64,000 nucleotides of DNA from Arenicola marina (Eukaryota > Annelida > Polychaeta > Arenicolidae): NCBI GenBank assembly GCA_964019135.1, contig OZ025255.1, positions 39,834,811 to 39,898,810 of the forward strand, in the 5' to 3' direction. Positions 5,016 through 54,375 of this stretch are shown here, in pieces (position 1 is the stretch's first letter; the number at the start of each line of letters is the position of its first letter). A program made the translations under genes and the position numbers. The notes beneath the pieces were generated by a model. It worked only from the letters and a program-made list of their open reading frames with translations, did not search any database and was not told where the DNA came from.

Positions 5016-6443
5016 CGCTGTGCGCCCATTGCCGCGACGTTCGCTTCTCAGCATGCGGGGGGAGCCCCACCCCCCTCTCAGCCGAACCCCGGCCTCTGTG
5101 TGGATGCCTGCCGGAAGACGGACTCCAAGTTGGACACCATACGGTGCTTTCTCTGTCGGGTGTGGTTCCACCAGCTGTGCGTCGGGGCCACGGAGGCAGA
5201 GGCGGCGGGCCTGTGGACTTGCCCCACATGTCGGACGGTACCCAGTGTTGTCATGAGCCTCCACGCCATGGTGACAACACTGACGAACACCCTGACGGCA
5301 GTCAACAAGCGACTGACCAGACTGGAGGACCGAAACAGCGGCTTGCAGAAGGACGTAAAGGACAAGACCGACCGCTGCGACAAGCTGACGAAGGAGGTTT
5401 CAGACGTGAGACGGGAAAACGCCAAGCTGACTGCCAACATCCAGAAGACGACATGGACAACACTACGGGCCGGACAGCCAGACAAGACGCTCCTCATCGG
5501 GACAAGCCTCATCAGAGACGTTGACGAGAGGAAGCTGAAGGACACGAGCGTCATCAGTGTCTCTGGAGCGACACTTCCGACCCTGACGGACCGACTGAAG
5601 GCCATCCCCACGACGTTCAAGCGCATTGTCATCGTGGGAGGGGGCAACGACTGCTCCAATCGCGGCGCTTCCCTGAACACCATCGTGGAGCGCTTCAGTA
5701 AGCTCATCCGGGCTGCCAAGGACAAAGCTGCCTCCGTGATGGTGTCTGCCATCTGTCCACGACTTGGCACGGACATGAGGGAACGCATCAACATGGTTAA
5801 CTCCGGCCTGCAAGGACTATGCGACGACATGGGATGCGACTTTACCGACAACTCCCCCCTGTTTAGGCTTAATGACGGATCCTTCAACGACGGATACATG
5901 ACGAATGACGCGACACATCTGACGTGCAAGGGCCAGAACAGACTCTGCCAACTGCTCAAGTTGACACCAACAGACGATGCGGACAAGGACAAAGACGTCT
6001 GTACCCGACCCCGTAAGACCCCCAAGGACCACGACGGACGTGGACGCAGCCGGACGGATCAGGACGGACCGGCGACGGGACCAGGACGACGACATAACGC
6101 GAGAGTAGACAGGAGACCTGCGTATCGCATCGCCGACCGCGGAGAACGGGACCGTGACGGAGACGACTGGACCCAGGTTCAGCGACGGCACCGTGACGGA
6201 GGCGAGTGGACGCGGGGACAGCGACGGCACTGTGACGGAGGCGAGAGGACGCAGGTAGAGGGACGGCACCGTGACGGAGGCGAGTGGACACATGTAGAGC
6301 GACGGCACCGAGCCCGACGAGAGACGACAGACAGATCGCGCGTGACAGAGAAGACGAACGACCAGCCTAGGTGTTACTACTGCGCGGAGGAAGGACATGT
6401 GACCGACAACTGCCGACATGGACACTACGTCACTTGTAAATAA
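5016..6443 (+). CDS. LINE ORF1 protein: PHD finger, coiled coil, SGNH esterase, CCHC knuckle
   Basis: ORF1 proteins of CR1-group LINEs bind their own RNA and help retrotransposition. The frame is open from 5,016. In order the translation shows a PHD-like finger at about 5,090-5,230 (FHQLC and WTCPTC), a heptad-rich coiled coil at about 5,250-5,450, and an SGNH/GDSL hydrolase fold at about 5,480-5,970. The hydrolase has its serine in GTS (usually GDS), an asparagine in GGGND and the Asp-His pair in DATHL. A 13-residue repeat built on RHRDGGEWT follows, four units at 6,150-6,310, then a CCHC knuckle (C-x2-C-x4-H-x4-C) near the end. There is no ATG at the front. The upstream frame from ATG 4,934 carries an extra CAHC pair and probably joined this one before a frameshift near 5,095. 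The protein is otherwise uninterrupted. Confidence 0.85.
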   Translation, partial: RCAPIAATFASQHAGGAPPPSQPNPGLCVDACRKTDSKLDTIRCFLCRVWFHQLCVGATEAEAAGLWTCPTCRTVPSVVMSLHAMVTTLTNTLTAVNKRLTRLEDRNSGLQKDVKDKTDRCDKLTKEVSDVRRENAKLTANIQKTTWTTLRAGQPDKTLLIGTSLIRDVDERKLKDTSVISVSGATLPTLTDRLKAIPTTFKRIVIVGGGNDCSNRGASLNTIVERFSKLIRAAKDKAASVMVSAICPRLGTDMRERINMVNSGLQGLCDDMGCDFTDNSPLFRLNDGSFNDGYMTNDATHLTCKGQNRLCQLLKLTPTDDADKDKDVCTRPRKTPKDHDGRGRSRTDQDGPATGPGRRHNARVDRRPAYRIADRGERDRDGDDWTQVQRRHRDGGEWTRGQRRHCDGGERTQVEGRHRDGGEWTHVERRHRARRETTDRSRVTEKTNDQPRCYYCAEEGHVTDNCRHGHYVTCK

Positions 6444-6470
6444 GTATTCGGCAATGGAGGAAGGGCCGAT

Positions 6471-9400
6471 ATGTTAAGTGATGGCTCCACTGACGATTTA
6501 ATATTATGTAGCAAGTCTGATTTACATTTTATGAATGAGGGGAGCTGTCAATGTGATTTTACTGGGCAACTAGGCAGTAAAGCCCATATTTTAAGCGATC
6601 TAACCGACACAGATGTTGTACATTGTAATGATGAGCTTTGGTTTATGGAAGATGACATGTTACGTGATGTTTTAACGATACCATGCAAGGTAAAAGAGTC
6701 AAAAGATATTTTAAGCCGTGCTGCAGATAGTGTAAGATACCGGCCTGATCAGCCTTTTATGATGAATGAGGATCATACATGTGCCCCTACCGACATAATA
6801 GCTACACCCAAGAATAATGAGGTAAGGTACGACCCCACATCTGTCCAGGACTGCCGCAATCATGAAAAGGTAAGTGAACGACAGGAGAATTTAGTGGCAG
6901 CGATCAAAGCCAACGAAGATGAAGAGTTATTTAGGCTCGCGCCATTTCATCAGAGAAATGTAAAAAATCTCAAGATAGCCCACATTAACATAAACAGCGT
7001 ACGACATAAGTTTGGACCGCTTAGCCAAGCACTGGGAAAAGGCGCTTTAGATGTCTTGTTCATTCAAGAGACTAAGTTAGACGATAGCTTTCCGGCAGGC
7101 CAATTTACTTTAAATGGGTACAAGGTCCACCGAAATGATAATACAGACAGCTCTGGAGGCATAATGGTGCAGGTAAGAGACGATATACCACACCGGCGGC
7201 GCAAGGATATAGAAATTAATGAAAACGAGAAGGGGCGTATCGAATCCCTGGCAATAGAAGTGACGCTGAATGCTGAAAAGTGGCTCTTTCTCAGTGTATA
7301 CAAGCAGCCGAAGGTAAAAAACGCATTACTTGTGACAAAGATCGATAGCCTTCTGAATGCAATCGCTGCTGAACAGGTTAACCTTGTACTGTTGGGAGAT
7401 TTAAATGTAAACATGTTAAACCATAAAAATTGTCTGAATGACGTATTAGAGGTCTATGGTACTAAAAATATCGTTAAGTCACCAACTTGTTTCAAAGGTA
7501 AAATACCGACCTTAATTGATGTTGTGATTACAAATGTGTCGAAGCGCTTACGAGATGTATAGATACGGGCCTCAGCGATTTTCACCATATGGTTTGCGTA
7601 GCAACGAAAATAGAAGTTCCCATTAGGCAGCAGAAACGTGTCTATTATCGAAGCTTTAAACATTTTGATGAGATTAAATACAAAGACGATCTAGCATCGG
7701 TACCTTTTCATGTAGGTGAAGTCTTTGAAGATGTTGATGATTCATATTGGTTTTGTAGCACATTGATCAAAGAGGTCGTTGATAGACATGCACCAACCAA
7801 GCAACGGGTAGTTAAGAATAACTGTGTGCCCTATATGAATAGCCATCTTCGCAAAGCCATAAATGTAAAAAATATGCTGAGACGGAAGTACGAGCAATTG
7901 AGTAGCCAAGAGAATTGGGAAAAATACAGAAAGCAAAGGAATCTCATAGGACGTCTTCGGAAAGTAAGCATGCAAAAGTACATAAAGGGGAAATGTAGCG
8001 AAGCTACGACTAACGGGAAGGAATTCTGGAAAGTTGTAAAACCACTTATATCAAGAAAAAACACAAGCAGCGGAAACGTGTTACTGAAAGAGCGAGACGA
8101 AATAATATCAGATCCATCAAAGGTAAGTGACATATTTAATCAATATTTCACAGACGTTGCCAAAGACATAGGCCAACAAGATGAAATACCAGATGATCAA
8201 CCAATAGACGAAACCCTTCTTTATCACAAAGACCATAAATCCGTTATGGCTATAAAGAAAGGTAACCAAGGTATAACGGAAACTTTTAACTTTCGGGCAG
8301 TAAGTAGCCACGAAATATACAATGCACTTAAAGGCATTGACGTGTCGAAAGCTAGTGGCTACGACAAGATACCTCCGAAGCTTATCAAGCTGGGAGCTGC
8401 CATCCTGTGTGAGCCATTAAGGTATATGTTAAATATGACGATTAATTGTAATACGTTTCCAAAAGAACTAAAATACGCTGAAGTCACACCAATTTTCAAG
8501 AAGAAGGACAACTTAAATAAGGAAAACTACAGGCCAGTAAGTGTTCTCCCCTGTATCTCCAAGATATATGAAAAAATATTGTGTGACCAGTTTATGTCCT
8601 TTATGGAACCCAGGTTATCACCCAGACTATCTGGGTTTAGAAAGGGACACAGTTGTCAAAGCCTACTGATGCGCTTAGTTGAAGACTCCAAAAATGCATT
8701 AGATAATAATCAAGTTATGGGAGCTATACTAATGGATCTCTGAAAAGCATTCGGTTGTCTTCCACATAGATTATTGATTACCAAGATGAACGCTTATGGC
8801 ATAAGTAAACAATCATGTACGCTAGTTGCAAGCTATCTTACGAACCGCGAACTGAGTGTAAAACTAGGACATAATCGGAGCGAGTGGCTTGCCCTCAAGA
8901 AAGGAGCACCACAGGGATCTGTTTTTGGTCCACATCTGTATAATGTATTTACGAATGACCTGCTTGTATCCACCGCACGGGGAACCGATAAGTATAATTA
9001 TGCTGATGATAATACTGTGGCGGCTCAAGGTAAGGAGTTTAACAAGGTTAAAGTAACTCTAGAGAAGGCGTTATCGGAGATAACAAAGTGGTTCGTCGAC
9101 AATTACATGAAAGCGAACCCAAGTAAGTACCAGGCAATCGTGTTTGAAAAGAGAAACGAATTAAGTCAGCACAGATCGTTTTCGATTTCTGGAACAGAAC
9201 TGGCAGCACAACAGGAAGTAACATTACTAGGTATTCAACTGGACGCTAGGTTAACTTTCGGCAACCATATATCAAGTTTATGCAAGAAGGCTGGAAAAAG
9301 TCTCAATATTTTAGCTAGAGTTTCTAAATCAATGGATGTTGATAGCAAACTTACGTTATTTCATGCTTTTATTCTTTCACATTTTAATTATTGTCCCCTT

Positions 9401-9840
9401 GTATGGCATTTTTGCGTAAGATTGAAAAGATACAGGAGCGGGCATTGAGGTATGTGTTTAATGACTTTAGATCAGAATACGCAGAGTTGAGGAAGAGAGC
9501 GGGTAGACCATTGCTATATATTGAACGATTGCGCTGCATATCATTAGAAGTTTACAAGAGTATCAACAAGATTGGGCCTAGTTATCTTCAGGACATGTAT
9601 AACGTGAAGGAAAACAATTACATTTTAAAAAATGGGCCAAATATATGTATGCCACGCGTTAAGACAACAGCTTATGGCCACAATTCATTGAAGTATCAAG
9701 GTAGCAAGCTATGGAACATGCTCAACAAGGAAACGAAGTTAGCCAAATCTGCCAAGGAATTTAAAACAACGCTGTCAACCTCGGATGTGTTCTTGTGTCA
9801 CTGTAATTCGTGCACATTATGTAACATAGCTAATGGGTAA
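6471..9840 (+). pseudogene. LINE ORF2 (endonuclease + reverse transcriptase), three breaks
   Basis: ORF2 nicks target DNA and copies the RNA into it. After about 160 unassigned residues the apurinic-type endonuclease begins near 6,970, with HININS, the catalytic glutamate in QETKLD, GDLNVNML and a late SDF motif after 7,560. Reverse transcriptase follows with the fingers at 8,450-8,700, APQGSVFGP at 8,908 and the catalytic YADD at 8,999. The C-terminal region ends at 9,840. Three lesions disable it: a frameshift near 7,560 in the endonuclease end, an in-frame TGA at 8,741 just before the conserved KAF of the first RT aspartate block, and a frameshift near 9,415. Otherwise the frame is well kept, so inactivation is fairly recent. 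Confidence 0.9.
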
Positions 9841-10011
9841 GGTTTTATGAGATGCAAAGGTTGTTATATTTTCATTGTCATATGTATATATATCTCATCC
9901 GCTCATGTCATTTTATCATTGTCGGTCAATAGCACGTGTGCTAATGTTTATTGTTGACTTTTACATACTGACGTTAAATAAAACTTTATCTTATCTTATC
10001 TATGCGATTGA

Positions 10012-10671
10012 GGATACAACAATGATGAGGTTATGTGGTCGAAACCCCAAGTGATGGCGAAGTTGCGGAATTCTTCCGATGAGAACTGAGGCCTGTTGTC
10101 GCTCATCAGTCGCTCTGGGATGCCTTGCGCCTCAAATATCCCCTTTAAGTGAGCGATGATAGTGCGGGATGTGGTGCTGTGAAGTTTCCTCACTACTGGG
10201 AACTTGCTGTAGCTGTCAGCAACAAGGAGGTAATTACTTTGTTCCCAGTAGAACAAGTCCGTAGCAAGTGTTTGCCATTGATTGGGTGGCACATCCATTG
10301 ACATCAGTGGCTTCTTTGCTGGCCGATCTCTGGTGTTTCTGGCATTTTGACTTCGCCCGTAGTCTGCGCTTCTCAAAGCCTTGGAAAGATAACATAAGAT
10401 AAGATAATAAACATTAGCACAAGTGCTACTGACCGACAATGATAAAAATCATCTGGTGAGCATAGTGCAACTGGTTGAGCACGTCCTGACAAAGCGATTT
10501 CGGGATGACAATAATCCTTGTGCCTTTCAAAATTACCCCATCTGCTATAGCAAGTTCTTCACGATAGTTCCAGTAACCATGAAGATGGGATAGATATTCT
10601 GATCGTGTGGGTGGCCAGCCGATGGGATTCATCTCTCGAATCTGTGTGATGTGAGTGGGACTGGCATTCAT
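10012..10671 (-). pseudogene. Gypsy integrase region
   Basis: The segment at 10,446-10,671 matches the region just before the integrase zinc-binding domain. From about 10,385 down, the catalytic core has its first aspartate in ATDLFYW and its second in SDNRPQF, with the usual spacing of about 60 residues. The glutamate-containing end is lost where the CR1-like LINE tail abuts at 10,005. A 59-bp LINE 3' fragment at 10,387-10,445 splits the two halves and removes the HHCC cysteines. The same region is present at 382-585. Confidence 0.85.
10387..10445 (-). mobile_element. CR1-like LINE 3' UTR fragment
   Basis: This is the reverse complement of the 3' end of the LINE at 4,850-10,005, including the TTATC-type tail (here GATAAGATAA) and the word ATTGTCGGTCA. 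It is a strongly 5'-truncated insertion into the gypsy integrase region. Confidence 0.8.
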
Positions 10672-12996: not shown

Positions 12997-13239
12997 ACGG
13001 GGATAATGAAACCATCCATAGGCAGGTTTGTAGCTCCGCCACAACCTGTGGCTCAACCATGCTGCTGATGGCCGCGATTTTTGCAGGGTCAGGTTTGATA
13101 CCATCTTCTCCAACGAGGTGACCAAAAAAAGGTATCTGCTTGCAGCGAACGACCATCTTCTCACTGTTGAACCGCGTGCCCGTTAGTCTGGCTCGCTCCA
13201 ATACTTTACAGAGTGTTGCATCGTGGTCACTGCCATCTT
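12997..13239 (-). pseudogene. Gypsy reverse transcriptase, C-terminal piece
   Basis: The translation includes HDATLCKVLERARLTG and FFGHLVGEDGIKPDP, the palm-thumb end of gypsy RT. It is the direct continuation of the piece ending near 16,260, because a LINE inserted between them. On its other side it stops where repeat family C begins. Confidence 0.9.
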
Positions 13240-15877
13240 CTATATATATCGACCTCCATGTGACATAAACGAAAATTATGCGACGTTTTCCCAAGAATTA
13301 TCTGAGGTTATACTTTCATTTGAAGGGAGTAAACCACATAGGGAATGTATCCTAGCAGGTGATTTTAATATAGACCTTTTAAAGATTTGCGAAAAACCAG
13401 CCATTAGCGACTACTTCGACACCATTGTAGCTTGCAGTTTTCTTCCGAAAATTACTTTGCCGACTAGACTGTCGCGTCATAGGGGTACGCTAATTGATAA
13501 TTTTCTGTGTAAGTTAACATCCAGTTCACTGAATACAACAGCTGGAATTATATTGAAGGCTATCTCAGACCATCTCCCGTATTACTTATCTCTAGACATT
13601 GATATGCGACGTACAAACAAAGCGCCCGCATATATTACCATAAATACCAATGATCCACAATTAGAAAACTTCAAAAAGCATATTGCCAACGCAGACGTAC
13701 TAGGTAAACTCGACATAGACCCATGTGCTGATCCTAACAGTAACTATAAGATACTCGAGGATATAATTACACATGCCAGGGATGTTTTTTTACCAAGCAA
13801 AACAGTAAAATTTAACAAGAGAAAGCACAAAAAGGCAAACTGGATCACCAATGGTATTATTAAGTCCATAGCATTTAAAGACAAACTTTATAAAAAGCTT
13901 AAAATGACGGTCCCAAATTCTCGTCAATACGACATCCTAAGGACCAACCTGAGAACCTATGAAAATATTTTAAAGAACAGTATTCGGGAAGCAAAAAGAT
14001 TGTATTATTCCAATGCTTTTGAGAAATGTAAAGGTGCCCTAAAGGAAACCTGGAAAGCAATAAAATCCGTTATTCATAAATCAAAGAGAAAGGACAAATT
14101 TCCTGAAGTATTTAACATTAATGGCAAAATGACTTCCGATCGACCGGCTATAGCTAATGGCTTCAATGATTTTTTCAGCACTATGGGAGCAAAACTTGCT
14201 AGCAAAATCCTCCCAGATCCCAGCCAAACTTACGCCAGCTTTCTTGGGGACCCTTGTGATACAAAGATGGAGTTTCACTTAATTAACCACACTGTCACGG
14301 AAAAAATAATCGATCAGCTTAAACCAAAAATTAGTTCTGGGCATGATAAGATGTCCATGAAAACACTGAAGCTATTGAAAGTAGAATTGAGCAAAGCAAT
14401 TACTCACATAATTAACCAATCTATTACAACGGGCACTTTTCCAGATAAATTGAAGCTTGCTAAAGTAGTACCAGTGTTCAAAAAGGGTGAAAAGTCTAAC
14501 GTCGATAACTATAGGCCAATATCAATTTTACCAGCTATATCTAAAGTTTTTGAAAGAGTAATTTATGATCAGATGTATGAACATTTTGATCACGAGAAAC
14601 TGTTTAACAGCGGTCAGTTTGGTTTTCGGAAAAAACATTCCACTCAACTTGCAACATTGGAATTAATAGATAGAACAATACAAAAACTGGACGAAGGCCA
14701 GATCCCAATAAGTATATTCCTAGATTTGTCAAAGGCCTTTGACACCATTAACCATGATATACTGTTATTTAAACTAAAACACTATGGGGTGTGTGGGGCT
14801 GCGCTTAGTTTAATAACCAATTATCTTCATAACCGAAAACAGTACGTAAGCCTAGATAATGATATATCAGAAGAAACCCCCGTCTCCCGAGGGGTTCCAC
14901 AGGGATCCATACTTGGCCCATTACTTTTTATAATCTATATAAACGACATATCTAGGGCGAGTGCGATATTTAGTGCAATTATATATGCTGATGATACAAC
15001 CCTTTCCAGCACACTTAGCGCTTGCGCCTCCAAGACTAACATACAACGTAGTGCTGATATACTGAACAATGAACTGTCTTTAGTAAATAATTGGCTTAAA
15101 CTAAACCAACTATCTCTTAACATCACAAAAACCAAGTTTATGATTTTCTATATGCCGCAAAAACGAGTAATAATGCCAGAACTCTATATTGACCATACCA
15201 AGCTAGAATGTGTTGATCAATTTGATTTCCTTGGACTGACCATACAGAAAAATCTGAAATGGTCCAGTCATAGCGATAAAATTGCTTTCAAGATATCTAA
15301 AGTGGTTGGAATCATGCAGCAACTAAAATACGTCCTTCCTCAGAACATTCTCCTGACTATATACAACTCACTCATACTATCGCATTTTCACTATTGTATA
15401 CTAGCCTGGGGGTACCAAAGTAATCGACTGAAAAACATCCAGAAGAAAGCTGTACGTATCATTACAAGGAGTAATTACATGGCCCACACCGATCGCTTAT
15501 TTAAACATCTGAATGTCCTTAAAATCGACGACATTCATAAACTTCAGGCGCTAAAGTTTTATTACAGGTTAAAGCATAATGATCTCCCCGCATACTTTTT
15601 GAATACATTCGACTTACCTCGAATACTTGACAGATATAACTACAACACTAGACAAAAATACAATACTATTATCCCTAGAACAAAACACAAGTTTGCAGAA
15701 AGTTGCATTAGATATTATCTTACGCATTTAATAAACGAATTACCTCAAGACATAATCACGAAGATTTTTACTCATAGCCAAGCCGGATATACCCGACATA
15801 TCAAACAGAGATTTATAGACTCGTATAGAATTGACTGCTTAATAGTAAATTGTTATGTGTGTCAACTCAATTACTAA
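13240..15877 (+). CDS. LINE ORF2 (endonuclease C-half + reverse transcriptase), open to the stop
   Basis: The frame is open for about 880 codons with no stop or frameshift, although the true N-terminus is missing, so it cannot start normally. The endonuclease half shows YRPP at the front, GDFNIDLL, LIDNF and SDHLPYY, the last two being late catalytic blocks. Reverse transcriptase follows: NYRPISILPAISKVFE (about 14,507), FLDLSKAFDTINHDIL with the first catalytic aspartates (about 14,717), GVPQGSILGPLLF (about 14,891) and YADD at about 14,986. The C-terminal tail contains the usual IQKKAVRII and YNTRQ motifs. The intact frame indicates that this insertion is young compared with the gypsy host. 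Confidence 0.95.
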
Positions 15878-44760: not shown

Positions 44761-47700
44761 TTATTTGGGATGATTTTTACAGGCCCATGAGTTTTTATTG
44801 CTATAACATTGATACTACACACTGGTATGCTAAACAACTGTGATTGTGCTGTATGCAAGCGTAAGATATTACATCACTCGTATCATATAAATTGTTCTAT
44901 TTGCTACTGTTTCTATCACGTTAATTGTTTGTCTCATTTTACCAGAGAAGACCTGCAGGTTGTGAGAGAAAATAATGATCCATGGTATTGCATCAATTGT
45001 ATAACTGAAATATTTCCTTTTAATGGGATAACTGAGACACGGGCTTTTGAACTCGCTATCTCGTCTAGTAGCGTCAATATTTGAGTTAAACTCAGACTAC
45101 ATGATGCCGCTAAATGACACTGACCCTGATGTAAATTTCTATGTAGATTCGTCTGCCAGCATGTCAAATTGTAAGTACTATTTAGAAGACGCCTTCAATG
45201 AGTCATGCAAAGAACTTAGACTCGAGGAGTTGTCATTTTCCATTATGCATATGAACATAAGAAGCGCGCAGAAAAACTTCTCACAGTTTGGATCCTATAT
45301 TGAAACTTTAAATCATGATTTTACTGTGTATGCCTTTACTGAAACCTGGTTTAACGAAGGCAACGTTGATTGGCATGGTTTGGACGGTTATCTCCCCGTC
45401 AATAGTTACCGACAAGACAGAACTGGTGGAGGGGTATCAATGTTTATTAAGTTCGGAGTTAACTTCACCAAGCGATCGGACTTGGATGTATTTAATGAAC
45501 ATATGGAAGCTTTATTTGTGCAACTAGACAAGGGAGCTTATGCTAATCAGAAATCAATTTTAGTAGGTGTAGTTTACCGACCACCGGATACCAACATTGT
45601 TGTATTTAATGAGCAGTTAGACGAGTTATTGCATAAGATTAACTCTGAAAAGGTGGTTTGTTATCTCGCAGGAGATTTTAACATTAATCTGCTAAATATG
45701 GACTCTCATAGACCCACAGCTGAATTTATTGATTCAATGTTTAGCCATGCGTTTCTACCCGCGATAAGCAAACCGACCAGGGTAACAAGTACCACAGCTA
45801 CGCTGATTGATAATATCTTCACTAACGAGTGCGATATTAACTCTTCGTTGAAAGGCATTATGTACACAGATATTACAGATCATTTTCCTGTGTTCTATAT
45901 ATCACAGTATGTTCAGATTAATGTTGAAAGAGTTAACATCGTGGAAAGGAATGTGAGTAAGCCCAATATTGAGAAATTTGTTCACTGTATAACAAACTAA
46001 AACTGGAATAATATTTTAGAGACACCAAGCACGCAGGAAGCCTATACTAAACTACACCGTTCAGTTTCTCTTATACATGAGAAATGTTTTCCTCTCACTG
46101 TCTCCAGATCTAAATACCAAAACAGAAAACCATGGCTCAGTACAGGATTAAAGAACTGCATATCTAAGAAAAATCGATTGTATTGTAGATTTATGAGACA
46201 AAAAACCAAAGAATCTGAGCATGATTATAAAAAATATAAAAATAAGCTTTTATCCACTGTTAGAGCGGCAGAAAAAACGTATTATCAGTCCACCATAAAA
46301 GCAAATAAAAATAACTTGTTTAAGATGTGGAAAACAATTAAAGAGGTAGTAAACAAAAAACAAGGTCAGAAGTTCCAAACGACATTTTCGATAAGAGGAG
46401 GACTGATTACAGATAGAAGCCAAATTGCTAATGAGTTTAATAACTACTTTGTTAATGTTGGTAAATCTCTATCAAAAACAATCCCAAGTAATGGAGATTC
46501 ACCACTCACGTTTATGAAAGATACCAATACTAAGTCGCTTTTCCTTGAGCCAGTTACTAGTAGTGAAGTCCGCAACGCCCTTGCATCCCTAAAGAACAGC
46601 TCACCAGGATGGGACTCGCTAACAGCCAAAGTAATCAAAACGATTATAGATCCCCTCACCCGACCCCTAACTCATGTAATTAATCTCTTATTTAGTGCAG
46701 GGATATTTCCCGAAGAACTTAAAGGTGCAAAAGTAACACCTATCATGAAAGGGGGGGATAGTAAATTATTTACTAACTACAGACCAATTTCAATTCTTCC
46801 AACATTTTCTAAAGTGTTCGAACAGCTGATGCAGAAACGTCTAATCAACTTTATTAACAAATATGACTTACTACACAAAAACCAATTTGGTTTTAGATCA
46901 AATCACTCTACTACCTTAGCCCTTTTACTTCTGCAAGATAAACTAACAACTTCTAGGGAAATGGGACAAACTACTGTTGGTATATTTCTTGATTTCTCGA
47001 AAGCCTTCGATACGGTTGACCACGATATACTGTTTAAAAAATTAGACAGATACGGCGTAAGAGGGCTTGCTTTAACGTGGCTAAAAAGTTATCTCAATGC
47101 GAGAGAACAGTTTGTAGTTTACAATAATACATTTTCGAACAGATCTCGAATAGTATGTGGAGTCCCGCAAGGTTCTGTTCTAGGTCCACTTTTATTTCTT
47201 TTATACATTAATGACTTAATGAATGTAAGTAAGCAATTGTTTGGAATCTTATTTGCAGATGATTCTAATTTCTTTATATCGGGCAAAGATATCAATAAAA
47301 CGATTGAAACGCTGAATGGGGAATTAAAACACATACAGTATTGGCTGCAAATTAATAAGCTTGCTCTCAATCTCGATAAAACTAAATTCATGGTTTTCAA
47401 ACCCAAGCGAAAGAAAATTAGTATTCACAGCAGTGTCATCATTTCTGGCGAAACTGTTGTACAAACTACTATCACGAAATTTTTGGGAGTACAATTAGAC
47501 TGTGACCTTCTGTGGAAACAACATATAGATTATATTAAAAGTAAAATGGCAAGGGCGCTTGGAATAATCACTTGTGCAAGGAAAATGTTAACCAATGACA
47601 CCCTACGGATTTTATATAATTGTTTTGTATCTCCATATCTATCATATTGTATTGAAGTATGGGGAGCTTCGTGTAGTAGCTTTTTAACCCCTCTTATCGT

Positions 47701-48376
47701 GATCCAAAAAAAAGCAGTTCGCATATTGTCTGGAGTTAATAAATGGGCCCACTCAGCGCCGTTATTTGTAACGAATAAGATTCTCCCGCTCACATCATTA
47801 TACGAGTATAGCGTTTTATCATTTATGTTTAAGCAATACAATGGATTGCAACCTCTTTTAATAAAAGATTTGTTTATAAGAAATGCTGACATACATAAGT
47901 ATAACACTAGAAGGTCGCAGCTATTACATGTTCCTAAGCACAAGTGTCAATTGACGAAAATATCTATGAGATATAATGGGATATATATTTTTAATAAATG
48001 GTTTGGTAAGGTAAACTTTCAATCATCGCTTCACCTTTTTAAGAGAAATACTAAGGATAGTTTGTTAAATATAATTGATACGAGTAATTTAACTAATGTT
48101 AATTTGATGTGTAACTAGCCATCACAATATAATCATATATGTTACTGAGTTAATAGAAAGAAAGAACTATTATAGTGCAACGATTGGGCCAAATCGATAT
48201 TATCTATATTGCTGTACTACCGTTCCATGTTCCTGTTTTTTGTTGTTGTTTTGAGTTTTTTTTGTTTGTTTTTTTTTGTTTTTTTGAGCAAATAAGCCTC
48301 GGCTTCTTCTCCTTGCCAACCAGTTCTGTATTATCTTGATTTGTGTACTCTTCATGGCAATAAAAATTATTATTAA
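44761..48376 (+). mobile_element. CR1-like LINE, young, almost intact
   Basis: A PHD-like finger, an endonuclease and a reverse transcriptase follow each other on one strand, then a short 3' UTR that ends in AATAAAAATTATTATTAAT. A truncated copy of this 3' UTR is present inverted at 54,376-54,590. The 5' end is not defined. No separate ORF1 was found, so it may be 5' truncated or a one-ORF type. Confidence 0.85.
44809..48118 (+). pseudogene. LINE ORF2: PHD finger, endonuclease, reverse transcriptase; one frameshift, one stop
   Basis: The first frame (44,809-45,084) holds a PHD-like finger (CDCAVC, CSICYCFYHVNC, WYCINC) followed by FPFN, as found at the front of many invertebrate CR1-group proteins. 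A frame change near 45,060 leads into 45,047-48,118. There the endonuclease shows MNIRS, TETWF, YRPP, GDFNINLL, LIDNIF and TDHFP. RT shows NYRPISILPTFSKVFE (about 46,776), FLDFSKAFDTVDHDIL (about 46,984), GVPQGSVLGPLLF (about 47,158) and FADD (about 47,251). A single TAA at 45,998-46,000 interrupts the frame. With only two defects in about 1,100 codons it is recent. Confidence 0.9.
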
Positions 48377-50340: not shown

Positions 50341-50819
50341 CCCCCCCCGCCATACACACCCGCAACCCCAGAGCACCCTGTGGGTGCAGGGTAATACTAC
50401 GGCACAGACTAGTCAGAGTAAAATTGGATGCGCACCCTGGGTGTTCAGGCGCATGAAGTTGGAAAGACAGAAAAGACAGAAAGACAGAAAGACGAGAAAA
50501 ATAGTGAAGTTGGAAAGACAGAAAGACAGAAAGACGAAAAATAGTGAAGTTGGAAAGACAGAAAGACAGAAAGATAGAAAGACGAAAAATAGTGAAGTTG
50601 AAAAGACTAGAAAGACAGAAAGAAATATATTTCTTAAGCCAACGGCCATTGAATTTAACATTAATGCTAAGTTTTATATACACTGTAGGCATAGTGGAGC
50701 AGGTGGAAAAAATGGCGCACCATGAGATACACTCAGACCAAACACCAAAAAGACTGATAGCGCTCCAAATGGTCACCTTCCGTGATGTAAATTACCAATT
50801 TTCTAACAAATTATACAAT

Positions 50820-51430
50820 TTTATTTTTTTACGTTTTTGAATAGCCCTACTCCAGGGTAACCATTTCATTGTTTAATAAACCCTAATTAAATATATATGT
50901 TTTAAAACGTCTTTCTGGTGTACACCCTTTTTCCTACGGCACATGGCCAATCCACCTTTACGTTTTTGATTAGCCGTACTCCTGCCCCATCTACGCTATA
51001 ACTTTCATCGTGTCACAGGATCTACAAAAAGGGGAACCATTTCATTGTTTAATAGACCTTAATTAAATATATATTTTTTAAAACGTCTTTCTGGCGTACA
51101 CCCTTTTCCCTACGGCACATGGCCAATCAACCATTACGTTTTTGATTAGCCCTACTCCTCCCATCAACGCTATAACTTTCATCGTGTCACAGAATCTACA
51201 AAAAGGGTAACCATTTCATTGTTTAATAGACCTTAATTAAATATATACTTCTTAAAACGTCTTTCTGGTGTACACCCTTTTCCCTACGGCACATGGCCAA
51301 TCAACCTTTACGTTTTTGAATAGCCCTACTCCTGCCTCATCTACGCTATAACTTTCATCGTGTCACAGAATCTACAAATAGGGTAACCATTTCATTGTTT
51401 AATAAACCTTAATTATATTAAAAAAATTTA
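50820..51430 (+). repeat. About 175-bp satellite units, left arm
   Basis: Units are marked by CGTCTTTCTGG at about 50,909, 51,083, 51,258 and 51,431, a spacing of 173-175 bp. Each contains GGCACATGGCCAATC, TTTTTGATTAGCC or TTTTTGAATAGCC, CTATAACTTTCATCGTG and CATTTCATTGTTTAAT. Confidence 0.95.
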
Positions 51431-51436
51431 ACGTCT

Positions 51437-52760
51437 TTCTGTGAAAGTTATAGCGTAGATGAGGCAGGAGTAGGGCTATTCAAAAACGTAAAGGTTGATT
51501 GGCCATGTGCCGTAGGGAAAAGGGTGTACACCAGAAAGACGTTTTAAAAAGTATATATTTAATTAAGGTCTATTAAACAATAAAATGGTTACCCTATTTG
51601 TAGATTCTGTGACACGATAAAAGTTATAGCGTAGATGGGGCAGGAGTAGGGCTATTCAAAAACGTAAAGGTTGATTGGCCATGTGCCGTAGGAAAAAGGG
51701 TGTACACCAGAAAGACGTTTTAAAAAATATATATTTAATTAAGGTCTATTAAACAATGAAATGGTTACCCTATTTGTAGATTATGTGACACGATGAAAGT
51801 TATAGCGTAGATGAGGCAGGAGTAGGGCTAATCAAAACACGTAAAGGTTGATTGGCCATGTGCCGTAGGGAAAAGGGTGTACACCAGAAGAACGTTTTTA
51901 AAAGTATATATTTAATTAAGGTCTATTAAACAATGAAATGGTTACCCTATTTGTAGATTCTGTGACACGATGAAAGTTATAGCGTAGATGGAGCAGGGGT
52001 AGGGCTAATCAAAAACGAAAGGTTGATTGGCCATGTGCCGTAGGGAAAAGGGTGTACACCAGAAAGACGTTTAAAAAAAAATATATTTAATTAAGGTCCA
52101 ATAAACAATGAAATGGTTACCCTATTTGTAGATTCTGTGACACGATAAAAGTTATAGCGTAGATGGGGCAGGAGTAGGGCTATTCAAAAACGTGAAGGTT
52201 GATTGGCCATGTGCCGTAGGAAAAAGGGTGTACACCAGAAAGACGTTTTAAAAAATATATATTTAATTAAGGTCTATTAAACAATGAAATGGTTACCCTA
52301 TTTGTAGATTATGTGACACGATGAAAGTTATAGCGTAGATGAGGCAGGAGTAGGGCTAATCAAACACGTAAAGGTTGATTGGCCATGTGCCGTAGGAAAA
52401 GGGTGTACACCAGAAGGACGTTTTTAAAAGTATATATTTAATTAAGGTCTATTAAACAATGAAATGGTTACCCTATTTGTAGATTCTGTGACACGATGAA
52501 AGTTACAGCGTAGATGGAGCAGGGGTAGGGCTAATCAAAAACGAAAGGTTGATTGGCCATGTGCCGTAGGGAAAAGGGTGTACACCAGAAAGACCTTTAA
52601 ATATATATATATTTAATTAAGGTCCATTAAACAATGAAATGGTTACCCCATTTGTAGATTCTGTGACACGATCAAAGTTATAGCGTTGATGGGAGATGAG
52701 TCGGGCTATTCAAAAGTGTAACGGTTGATCGGCCATGTGTACACCAAAAAGACGTTCTTT
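51437..52760 (-). repeat. About 175-bp satellite units, right arm, with a higher-order repeat
   Basis: Eight inverted units are marked by CCAGAAAGACGTTTT or a variant at about 51,532, 51,706, 51,885, 52,057, 52,235, 52,410, 52,583 and 52,744. Units starting near 51,618 are more alike to those starting near 52,145 than to their neighbours, which gives a 3-unit (about 526 bp) higher-order period. Confidence 0.9.
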
Positions 52761-53133
52761 AAGAAAACTTTGTAATTTCGGCTGTAAAAATCTTGTAAGT
52801 GCCTAAATTATTATTGCACAATCTACAGATCTTGGTCATTTGACTTTGAAGCGTTGATTTTCAACAAATGTCTGTGTCCTTTTTTTTTGAAAAGGTATCT
52901 TCATTTGTGTACATTTGGGGTTGGCCCCCGGTGTCAGTCTTTTTCGTGTGTTTGGTCAGTTGCACATTTTTGTATTCTGAATATAACAATAAATATCTTT
53001 CTATCGTTCTGTCTTTCTGTCTTTGCAACTTCACTATTTCGTCTTTCTATCTTTCTGTCTTTCTGTCTTTCCAACTTCACTATTTCGTCTTTCTATCTTT
53101 CTGTCTTTCTGTCTTTCCAACTTCACGCCGCCG

Positions 53134-54375
53134 GGGTGTTCACCGGCGCGGCCTACTTTCAGATAGAAGGACCCAACCCTATACACCTGGGGCAAGAGCC
53201 GTGTAATAACCCTCACCGCTTGGCGGCGCCACCACGATCCTGTTACCGGGTTAAAGATACGGCTTTCGCTTCTTATTCTATAAAATCTTTGCCTTCAGCT
53301 CGGAACCTTTCACGACAGCCTTTCAGGGTGTCCCGTCGTGTAAGATGGAATTTGCTTCTAGAAATTTAGCTCCCAGAATGCAATAGTTCCATCCAGGCTG
53401 TCATTCATTCATTGACGTCACTGTAGCTTTTATCCAATCTTACTCTAATTGTGGCGACAAAAAGCCGCGTGCGCTAAGTGCGACAAACAAGTTGGGCAAA
53501 CAAAGCAGCATGCCACTTTCTTCAGATAGTGTCAGCTTCAGATATGAGTACTTCTCACTTGCTCCCCCCATCAGCTAGGAATATCTATTTCCTTCTCACG
53601 ATTAAAGAAAAACGACGCGTGGGCGGAGCTTAGCTCGGACTGGGAAACAGTTTATTGGAAGAGGGCCTCCTGCATATGCCTGGTTAGTCTGATGGCCAGC
53701 GTTCCCTGTTGATGTGGCGTTTCGCCACAATCTTTTGTTATTGCGGCCTAAATTTACTGGTTTCATGTCAACTTGCAAGCAAAAATGTGTTCATGCGGCC
53801 TTAATTTGGATATTAACACAAGGTGTCTGATTTATGTCTTGTAGGGGAACTGCATGCAGACATTAATATTTATGACAAGAAAACCGGTCTGCACTTCTGT
53901 TCTGGTATGCGTTATTGCACAGACTATGCGGGTCCGGATCTGGAAATTTAAAAATGGGGCGTACATAATTATTAATCATAAGGATTTCTTAATCATGAAC
54001 ACCACCACAACGAGCTGGTAAGGCTACGACGAAATTGCTCGTCTCGTGTTTAAGGTAAGTGTGGTTTTAAATACCGGCCCAGCTAAAATCGCTGAGTGCA
54101 TACACACTACAGCCCTATACAGGTCAACGTTGCGGTCATCTGTATATGATTGTAAATATACCATGTTTAGAAACATGTAAATTAAGGAAAGTTTCCAATA
54201 AATATTCGGGTTGTGATGATTATCAATTATGATATAATACATTAATTATATAGTATCTTCCGCGCTTGTTCGTTATTTCCAGAAATTGAACCTATTTAGC
54301 TTGGGATTGAAACAGAAACGCTACGATAGGACCTCACTGTGAATTCATATATGGGATTGTATCAGCGGCCCTAGT
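53134..54375. other. No recognisable gene
   Basis: Ordinary sequence without domains or shared repeats. Confidence 0.5.

Follow-up and report, generated by a model that had tools for sequence, protein, structure and literature searches.

Satellite-DNA arrays form the arms of a dispersed foldback transposon family, probably Rehavkus-like, in Arenicola marina

How satellite arrays originate and spread is an open question, and a locus of Arenicola marina raises it in the form of whether satellite DNA can travel as part of a transposon. Long inverted ends built of repeats are known from the Foldback (FB) element of Drosophila and from TU of sea urchin. We analysed a stretch of 64,000 nucleotides (the window; positions 39,834,811 to 39,898,810 of the forward strand of contig OZ025255.1, assembly GCA_964019135.1), for which the original prediction had proposed a foldback element with satellite arms.

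Alignment of family ends placed a foldback of 2,686 bp at 50447-53132 rather than at the proposed 50448..53133. As evident from Table 1, it consists of minisatellite ends, spacers, and inverted satellite arrays. Analysis of tandem arrays and inverted pairs (85 pairs, the longest 309 nt at 95%) bore out the proposed nesting of an outer 8-bp based minisatellite and an inner satellite in inverted arms. The flip of orientation without a loop was likewise found (Table 1). Other details were changed. The inner unit of 175 bp is the period of the right arm, but the family consensus, derived from 365 monomers, is 176 bp; the arms, counted as three and eight units, measured about 3.3 and 7.4. Minisatellite is present at both termini, but the outermost hexamers, expected to match, are different (AGGCGC versus GGCGGC). 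Satellite and minisatellite are inverted, but they do not form one continuous inverted repeat, as the spacers between them differ. The left and right spacers gave no mutual blastn match at an E-value of 1e-3, a stretch of about 22 bases being similar by eye; thus, the arms of the window copy are not one folded piece. Searches of the window against Rfam and against a plasmid collection gave no match. A motif shared by minisatellite and satellite was rejected: 9 bp are common to both, and the shuffle control covered 10 bp or more (reached in 89 of 5000 shuffles), so that 9 bp are not demonstrated as unusual.

Table 1. Features of the foldback element in the window and lengths of the other two-ended copies
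Feature	Position	Strand	Description
Left 9-bp target duplication	50438..50446	+	TGGGTGTTC, by family-fixed ends
Left terminal inverted repeat	50447..50625	+	hexamer AGGCGC, then 8-bp based minisatellite beginning ATGAAGTTGGAAAGAC
Left minisatellite tandem array	50454-50624		8-bp based, higher-order period 40
Left spacer	50625..50853	+	sequence common to the spacer by the AGCTCC end of E4, E5, E6
Left satellite arm	50854..51440	-	~3.3 units of 176-bp satellite
Left satellite tandem call	50854-51415		period 176, 3.2 units
Inversion centre	51435..51447	.	CTTTC-TGT-GAAAG, 5-bp inverted microhomology, no loop
Right satellite arm	51442..52739	+	~7.4 units, tandem call period 175
Right spacer	52740..52995	+	5 other partial genome matches, 82-91% identity
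Right terminal inverted repeat	52996..53132	-	minisatellite, GGCGGC hexamer outermost, read inwards
Right minisatellite tandem array	52996-53126		8-bp based, higher-order period 46
Right 9-bp target duplication	53133..53141	+	GGGGTGTTC
Two-ended copies, lengths			E1 19,729 bp; E2 17,652; E3 13,703; E4 12,307
Two-ended copies, lengths			E5 15,285 bp; E6 8,846; E8 28,620; E9 53,641

The window holds other mobile elements as well. A LINE with broken frames, which we take to be CR1-like, lies at 5100-9840; its first frame encodes a PHD finger and a GDSL esterase-like domain, and further on there are an endonuclease match below the cut-off and a weak match to reverse transcriptase. Two more stretches, at 13223-15877 (884 aa) and 45047-48118 (317 and 646 aa), are of non-LTR retrotransposon type and match reverse transcriptase strongly; an endonuclease domain lies in the 317-aa frame. 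An integrase core domain fragment (PF00665) is encoded on the minus strand at 9996-10439; a second frame, at 382-867 on the same strand and without a Pfam match, includes a peptide stretch that is nearly identical.

The genome (867 Mb) was searched with the satellite. At least 252 matches were obtained (38 of 46 first-look candidates scored), and many of those listed form paired arrays, one minus and one plus. Ten such loci were fetched and numbered E1-E10; both arm arrays were read in E1-E6 and E8, and one arm in E7, E9, and E10. The 18 ends compared have TGAAGTTGG after one of two caps, AGCTCC(A) or, at the opposite end, GGCGGC(G), with the variants AGGCGC in the window and GGTGGC in E6. With up to one mismatch allowed, the AGCTCC-type end was found 10 times in the genome (all exact) and the GGCGGC-type end 21 times (19 exact); reversed control patterns for both gave 0 matches. 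Eight two-ended copies were defined by paired matches, and the window copy, with a left end too divergent for the search pattern, is the ninth; they range from 2.7 to 53.6 kb. Partners were lacking for 12 of the 21 right ends and 2 of the 10 left ends, and for E7 no right end was present among the 21 genome-wide right-end matches. Three right ends on C10 (39517937, 39571239, and 39624603) share one orientation at spacings of 53,302 and 53,364 bp, near the 53,641-bp length of E9; an element or segment may have been duplicated in tandem here.

Target duplications were read at the fixed ends. The 9-bp flanks agree at 9/9 positions in E1, E2, E3, and E9, at 8/9 in the window, at 7/9 in E4 and E6, and at 5/9 in E5. 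The nine two-ended copies thus comprise four perfect duplications, three near-perfect ones (7-8 of 9), one weak, and one without. In a control at shifted positions, which for the window copy are those of the right flank, an equal match was attained at 0 of 578 for E1, E2, E3, E4, E6, and the window, and at 42 of 578 for the 5/9 flank of E5. The right flank of E9 was predicted from its left flank as a 29-base pattern, which had one exact genome match (C8:14968194-14968222). For E8, which has both ends, the predicted duplication was sought with up to 2 mismatches allowed and was not found. The duplication originally proposed for the window, GGGTGTTCA at 50439-50447 and 53134-53142, exists in these letters, but its 9/9 match requires a 1-bp shift of both element ends, and at the family-fixed ends it is reduced to the 8/9 given above. 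The copies constitute a dispersed family with fixed ends, 9-bp duplications, satellite arms, and an open gene in the long copies. The search proposed for further copies with the same ends was successful: terminal sequences recovered them genome-wide, their 9-bp flanks differ from those of the window copy, and unit number varies as well, each arm of a fetched copy holding 5 to 43 full monomers and the window copy 2 + 7.

Monomers within an arm are 95.1% identical when more than two units apart and 94.6% when neighbours. Identity is 94.1% between the arms of one element and 94.3% between elements. Because the latter value is close to that within an arm, the arrays appear to have been carried with the element and not to have arisen afresh at each site, as judged from monomer comparison. 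Monomers of the window copy are 93.0% identical to those of other copies, so this copy has diverged a little further than the rest, which agrees with its changed left hexamer and 8/9 flank. As the family is dispersed and reaches about 54,000 bases, arrays of satellite DNA are moved from place to place in this genome in the form of transposon arms. In E10 (L050:1-2555), a degenerate 30-bp based tandem array directly adjoins the satellite arm.

A centre of 4.7-7.6 kb lies between the arms of E1-E6 and is missing from the window copy. In six of the ten copies (E1-E5 and E8), a centre of about 7.1-7.6 kb is common at 97-99% identity, and E6 keeps parts of it at 95-99%. The centres of E1-E6 have no frame of more than 144 codons. 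Reverse-transcriptase remains in the centre were considered and dismissed (one match in one copy, E-value 7e-4, below the family cut-off). E8 contains a nested element with frames of 328 and 809 codons, LINE-like by eye.

E7 (on C3) and E9 (on C8) are longer versions and are 98% identical over 16.1 kb, E9 having been read over the first 16.4 kb of its 53.6 kb and its gene being known from a frame search. The open frame of E7 starts at L052:7326 and encodes a PHD finger (PF00628, E-value 4.7e-8), followed by a 48-bp in-frame minisatellite with 44 units in the 891 codons read. The frame comprises 4203 codons in E7 and 950 in E9, and both are identical to the 176-aa query. A 21-bp tandem repeat was observed in the centre of E7 (L045:3076-3237), and the same repeat peptide is encoded by E9. 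The centre of E1 aligns with E7 in blocks, the larger ones at 85-95%, and the alignment ends about 170 bp before the PHD gene; E1 thus looks like a deletion derivative that lost this gene. A search for an autonomous MULE with the same ends had been proposed; two long copies that share the left end carry an open gene, which is a candidate transposase gene. C182 encodes a relative (38% identity, 1031-codon frame). Four weak relatives of the PHD protein (31% identity, frames of 343-1091 codons) at C3:58.10-58.78 Mb possibly represent another transposon family. None of 72 candidate homologues of the PHD part reached an E-value of 0.001 or better. A structure prediction for residues 1-176 alone gave a mean pLDDT of 41.6 and was not used.

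The search for the MULE domain (PF10551) at E-values up to 10 scored 150 of 197 candidates and listed 150 matches; none of them lies within E9 or within 0.5 Mb of E7, where the reach of PF10551 for a Rehavkus catalytic domain may be limited and the E7 gene was read for 891 codons. The match nearest to a two-ended copy lies about 2.9 kb outside E6 at a sub-cut-off E-value of 0.049. A KDZ transposase (Zisupton etc.) was also considered and rejected: 39 PF18758 matches were obtained at E-values up to 1 among 49 scored candidates, and none is in E7 or E9 or closer than 0.4 Mb to E7.

The inverted arms are long and internally repetitive and come with target duplications, which places the family in the foldback structural class, as the likeness to Drosophila FB had suggested, but its closest match is Rehavkus. 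The likeness to FB and TU lies in the long repeat-built inverted ends and was compared by description only; a Drosophila-type FB name for the family was dropped because no sequence comparison stood behind it. The accessible text of PMC6446971 describes Rehavkus by 9-bp duplications, a PHD finger, and a minisatellite, and from arthropods and annelids. For Rehavkus-1_TC of Tribolium, the available part of PMC10218199 reports a 164-bp satellite in the inverted termini, mostly with five and eight monomers. The present family has the 9-bp duplications, PF00628 in the E7 gene with the identical 176 residues in E9, an outer minisatellite repeat of about 84 to 321 bp in the copies read (26-400 bp for the termini of Rehavkus), and satellite in its inverted termini. 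Because the 9-bp duplication, PHD finger, minisatellite, and inverted satellite termini coincide, membership in Rehavkus, a Mutator-related group, is probable from sequence features; the catalytic domain was not seen in the PF10551 search. Rehavkus has its minisatellite either within the coding part or ahead of the terminal repeat on the 3' side; the 48-bp minisatellite of E7 is in frame and follows the PHD finger in the part read. Rehavkus-1_TC is given as 9.5 kb in the same source part, whereas the present copies span 2.7-53.6 kb with arms of up to about 40 units.

Tetris of Drosophila virilis with its TIR-220 is also a foldback, and satellite arrays have arisen from its tandem repeats (PMC4079207, which cites a foldback of sea urchin as well). 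Its layout resembles that of the present family, with an external domain, an array of tandem repeats (about 220 bp in Tetris), an inner domain, duplications of 8-10 bp, a variable number of units, and no conserved gene. No autonomous copy of Tetris is reported there, whereas in the present family an open gene is found in long copies that share the left end. Tm1 of Meloidogyne (Mutator/foldback), according to the available text of PMC3169594, resembles the family in its repeat-built ends and in asymmetric 7-bp motifs that lie beyond the inverted repeat, as a rule with one kind to each end; it differs in a ~14-bp repeat motif and a 496-aa putative transposase, and no satellite arms are described in that text. 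Satellite-carrying transposons are thus already known from Tetris and Rehavkus-1_TC, and a foldback carrying or seeding satellite DNA is not new. For the scale, with arms of several kb and an element of 53.6 kb, and for the graded series of copies we found no published precedent in the open-access literature, where Rehavkus, foldback, and satellite occur together in one paper.

We consider it highly likely that the window copy is a non-autonomous, centre-deleted member of a cut-and-paste family that is probably Rehavkus-like. The family might instead belong to another Mutator clade (FB4-like or another MULE), with the PHD gene as a passenger and an unrelated MULE transposase doing the mobilizing. 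The genome contains at least 103 MULE-domain matches at an E-value of 0.001 or better, most foldbacks seem to be Mutator members (available text of PMC4079207), and nematode Tm1 combines asymmetric end motifs with repeat-built ends as here (same part of PMC3169594). Since none of the listed MULE matches (150 of 197 candidates scored) lies inside E1-E6, E8, E9, or the window, and since two separate long copies agree in all of the first 176 residues that the PHD gene encodes, we regard this alternative as unlikely.

A real transposon or satellite locus may also have been misassembled in the window, through a fold-back read or a collapsed copy, so that the inversion is an artefact. Against this, the two arms differ in spacers and end hexamers, as those of a folded read would not, the 8/9 flanks lie outside the element, and in other copies arms of several kb are resolved on both sides of a centre. 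Fold-back artefacts do occur in long reads (accessible text of PMC12870357) and the 5-bp microhomology sits at the turn; even so, an artefact is very improbable. Hardly credible at all is a plain satellite locus inverted by recombination, without transposition and with a chance 9-mer beside it. The arms of the window are ordinary tandem arrays, as this reading expects, but conserved ends extend beyond the satellite, dispersed copies have 9-bp duplications, and the right flank predicted for E9 was confirmed.

For the Rehavkus-like family preferred here, the following course may be envisaged. A minisatellite forms the terminal inverted repeat, each end having a different hexamer as its cap, and the inverted 176-bp satellite arrays lie inside. 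The minisatellite ends would be recognised by a transposase, most likely the product of the PHD gene, which would integrate the element through a 9-bp staggered cut and would act in trans on copies without the gene. Arm length would drift as units are gained or lost through unequal exchange or slippage. The centre of the window copy was most likely lost by a template switch or by fold-back repair at the 5-bp inverted microhomology, and the remaining element would have been mobilised in trans.

One tentative reading, to which we give somewhat less than even weight, goes further: the family would represent a Rehavkus-like transposon of giant size (54 kb) that has perhaps been active recently, and since its arms consist of a satellite of nucleosome length, it would itself be a mobile satellite array; the coding minisatellite may expand likewise (950 versus 4203 open codons). 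If so, each insertion site would receive about 2-12 kb of inverted satellite, judging by the copies read across. Long inverted arrays are expected substrates of rearrangement and of small-RNA silencing. Within one genome and for one satellite, the copies form a graded series: at its lower end stands the 2.7-kb foldback that lacks a centre, at its upper end the copy of 53.6 kb, which has an open gene and whose 9-bp duplication is perfect. Owing to this series and to the likeness of monomers between elements, the route from transposon to satellite that has been argued from Tetris and Rehavkus-1_TC becomes testable within one species.
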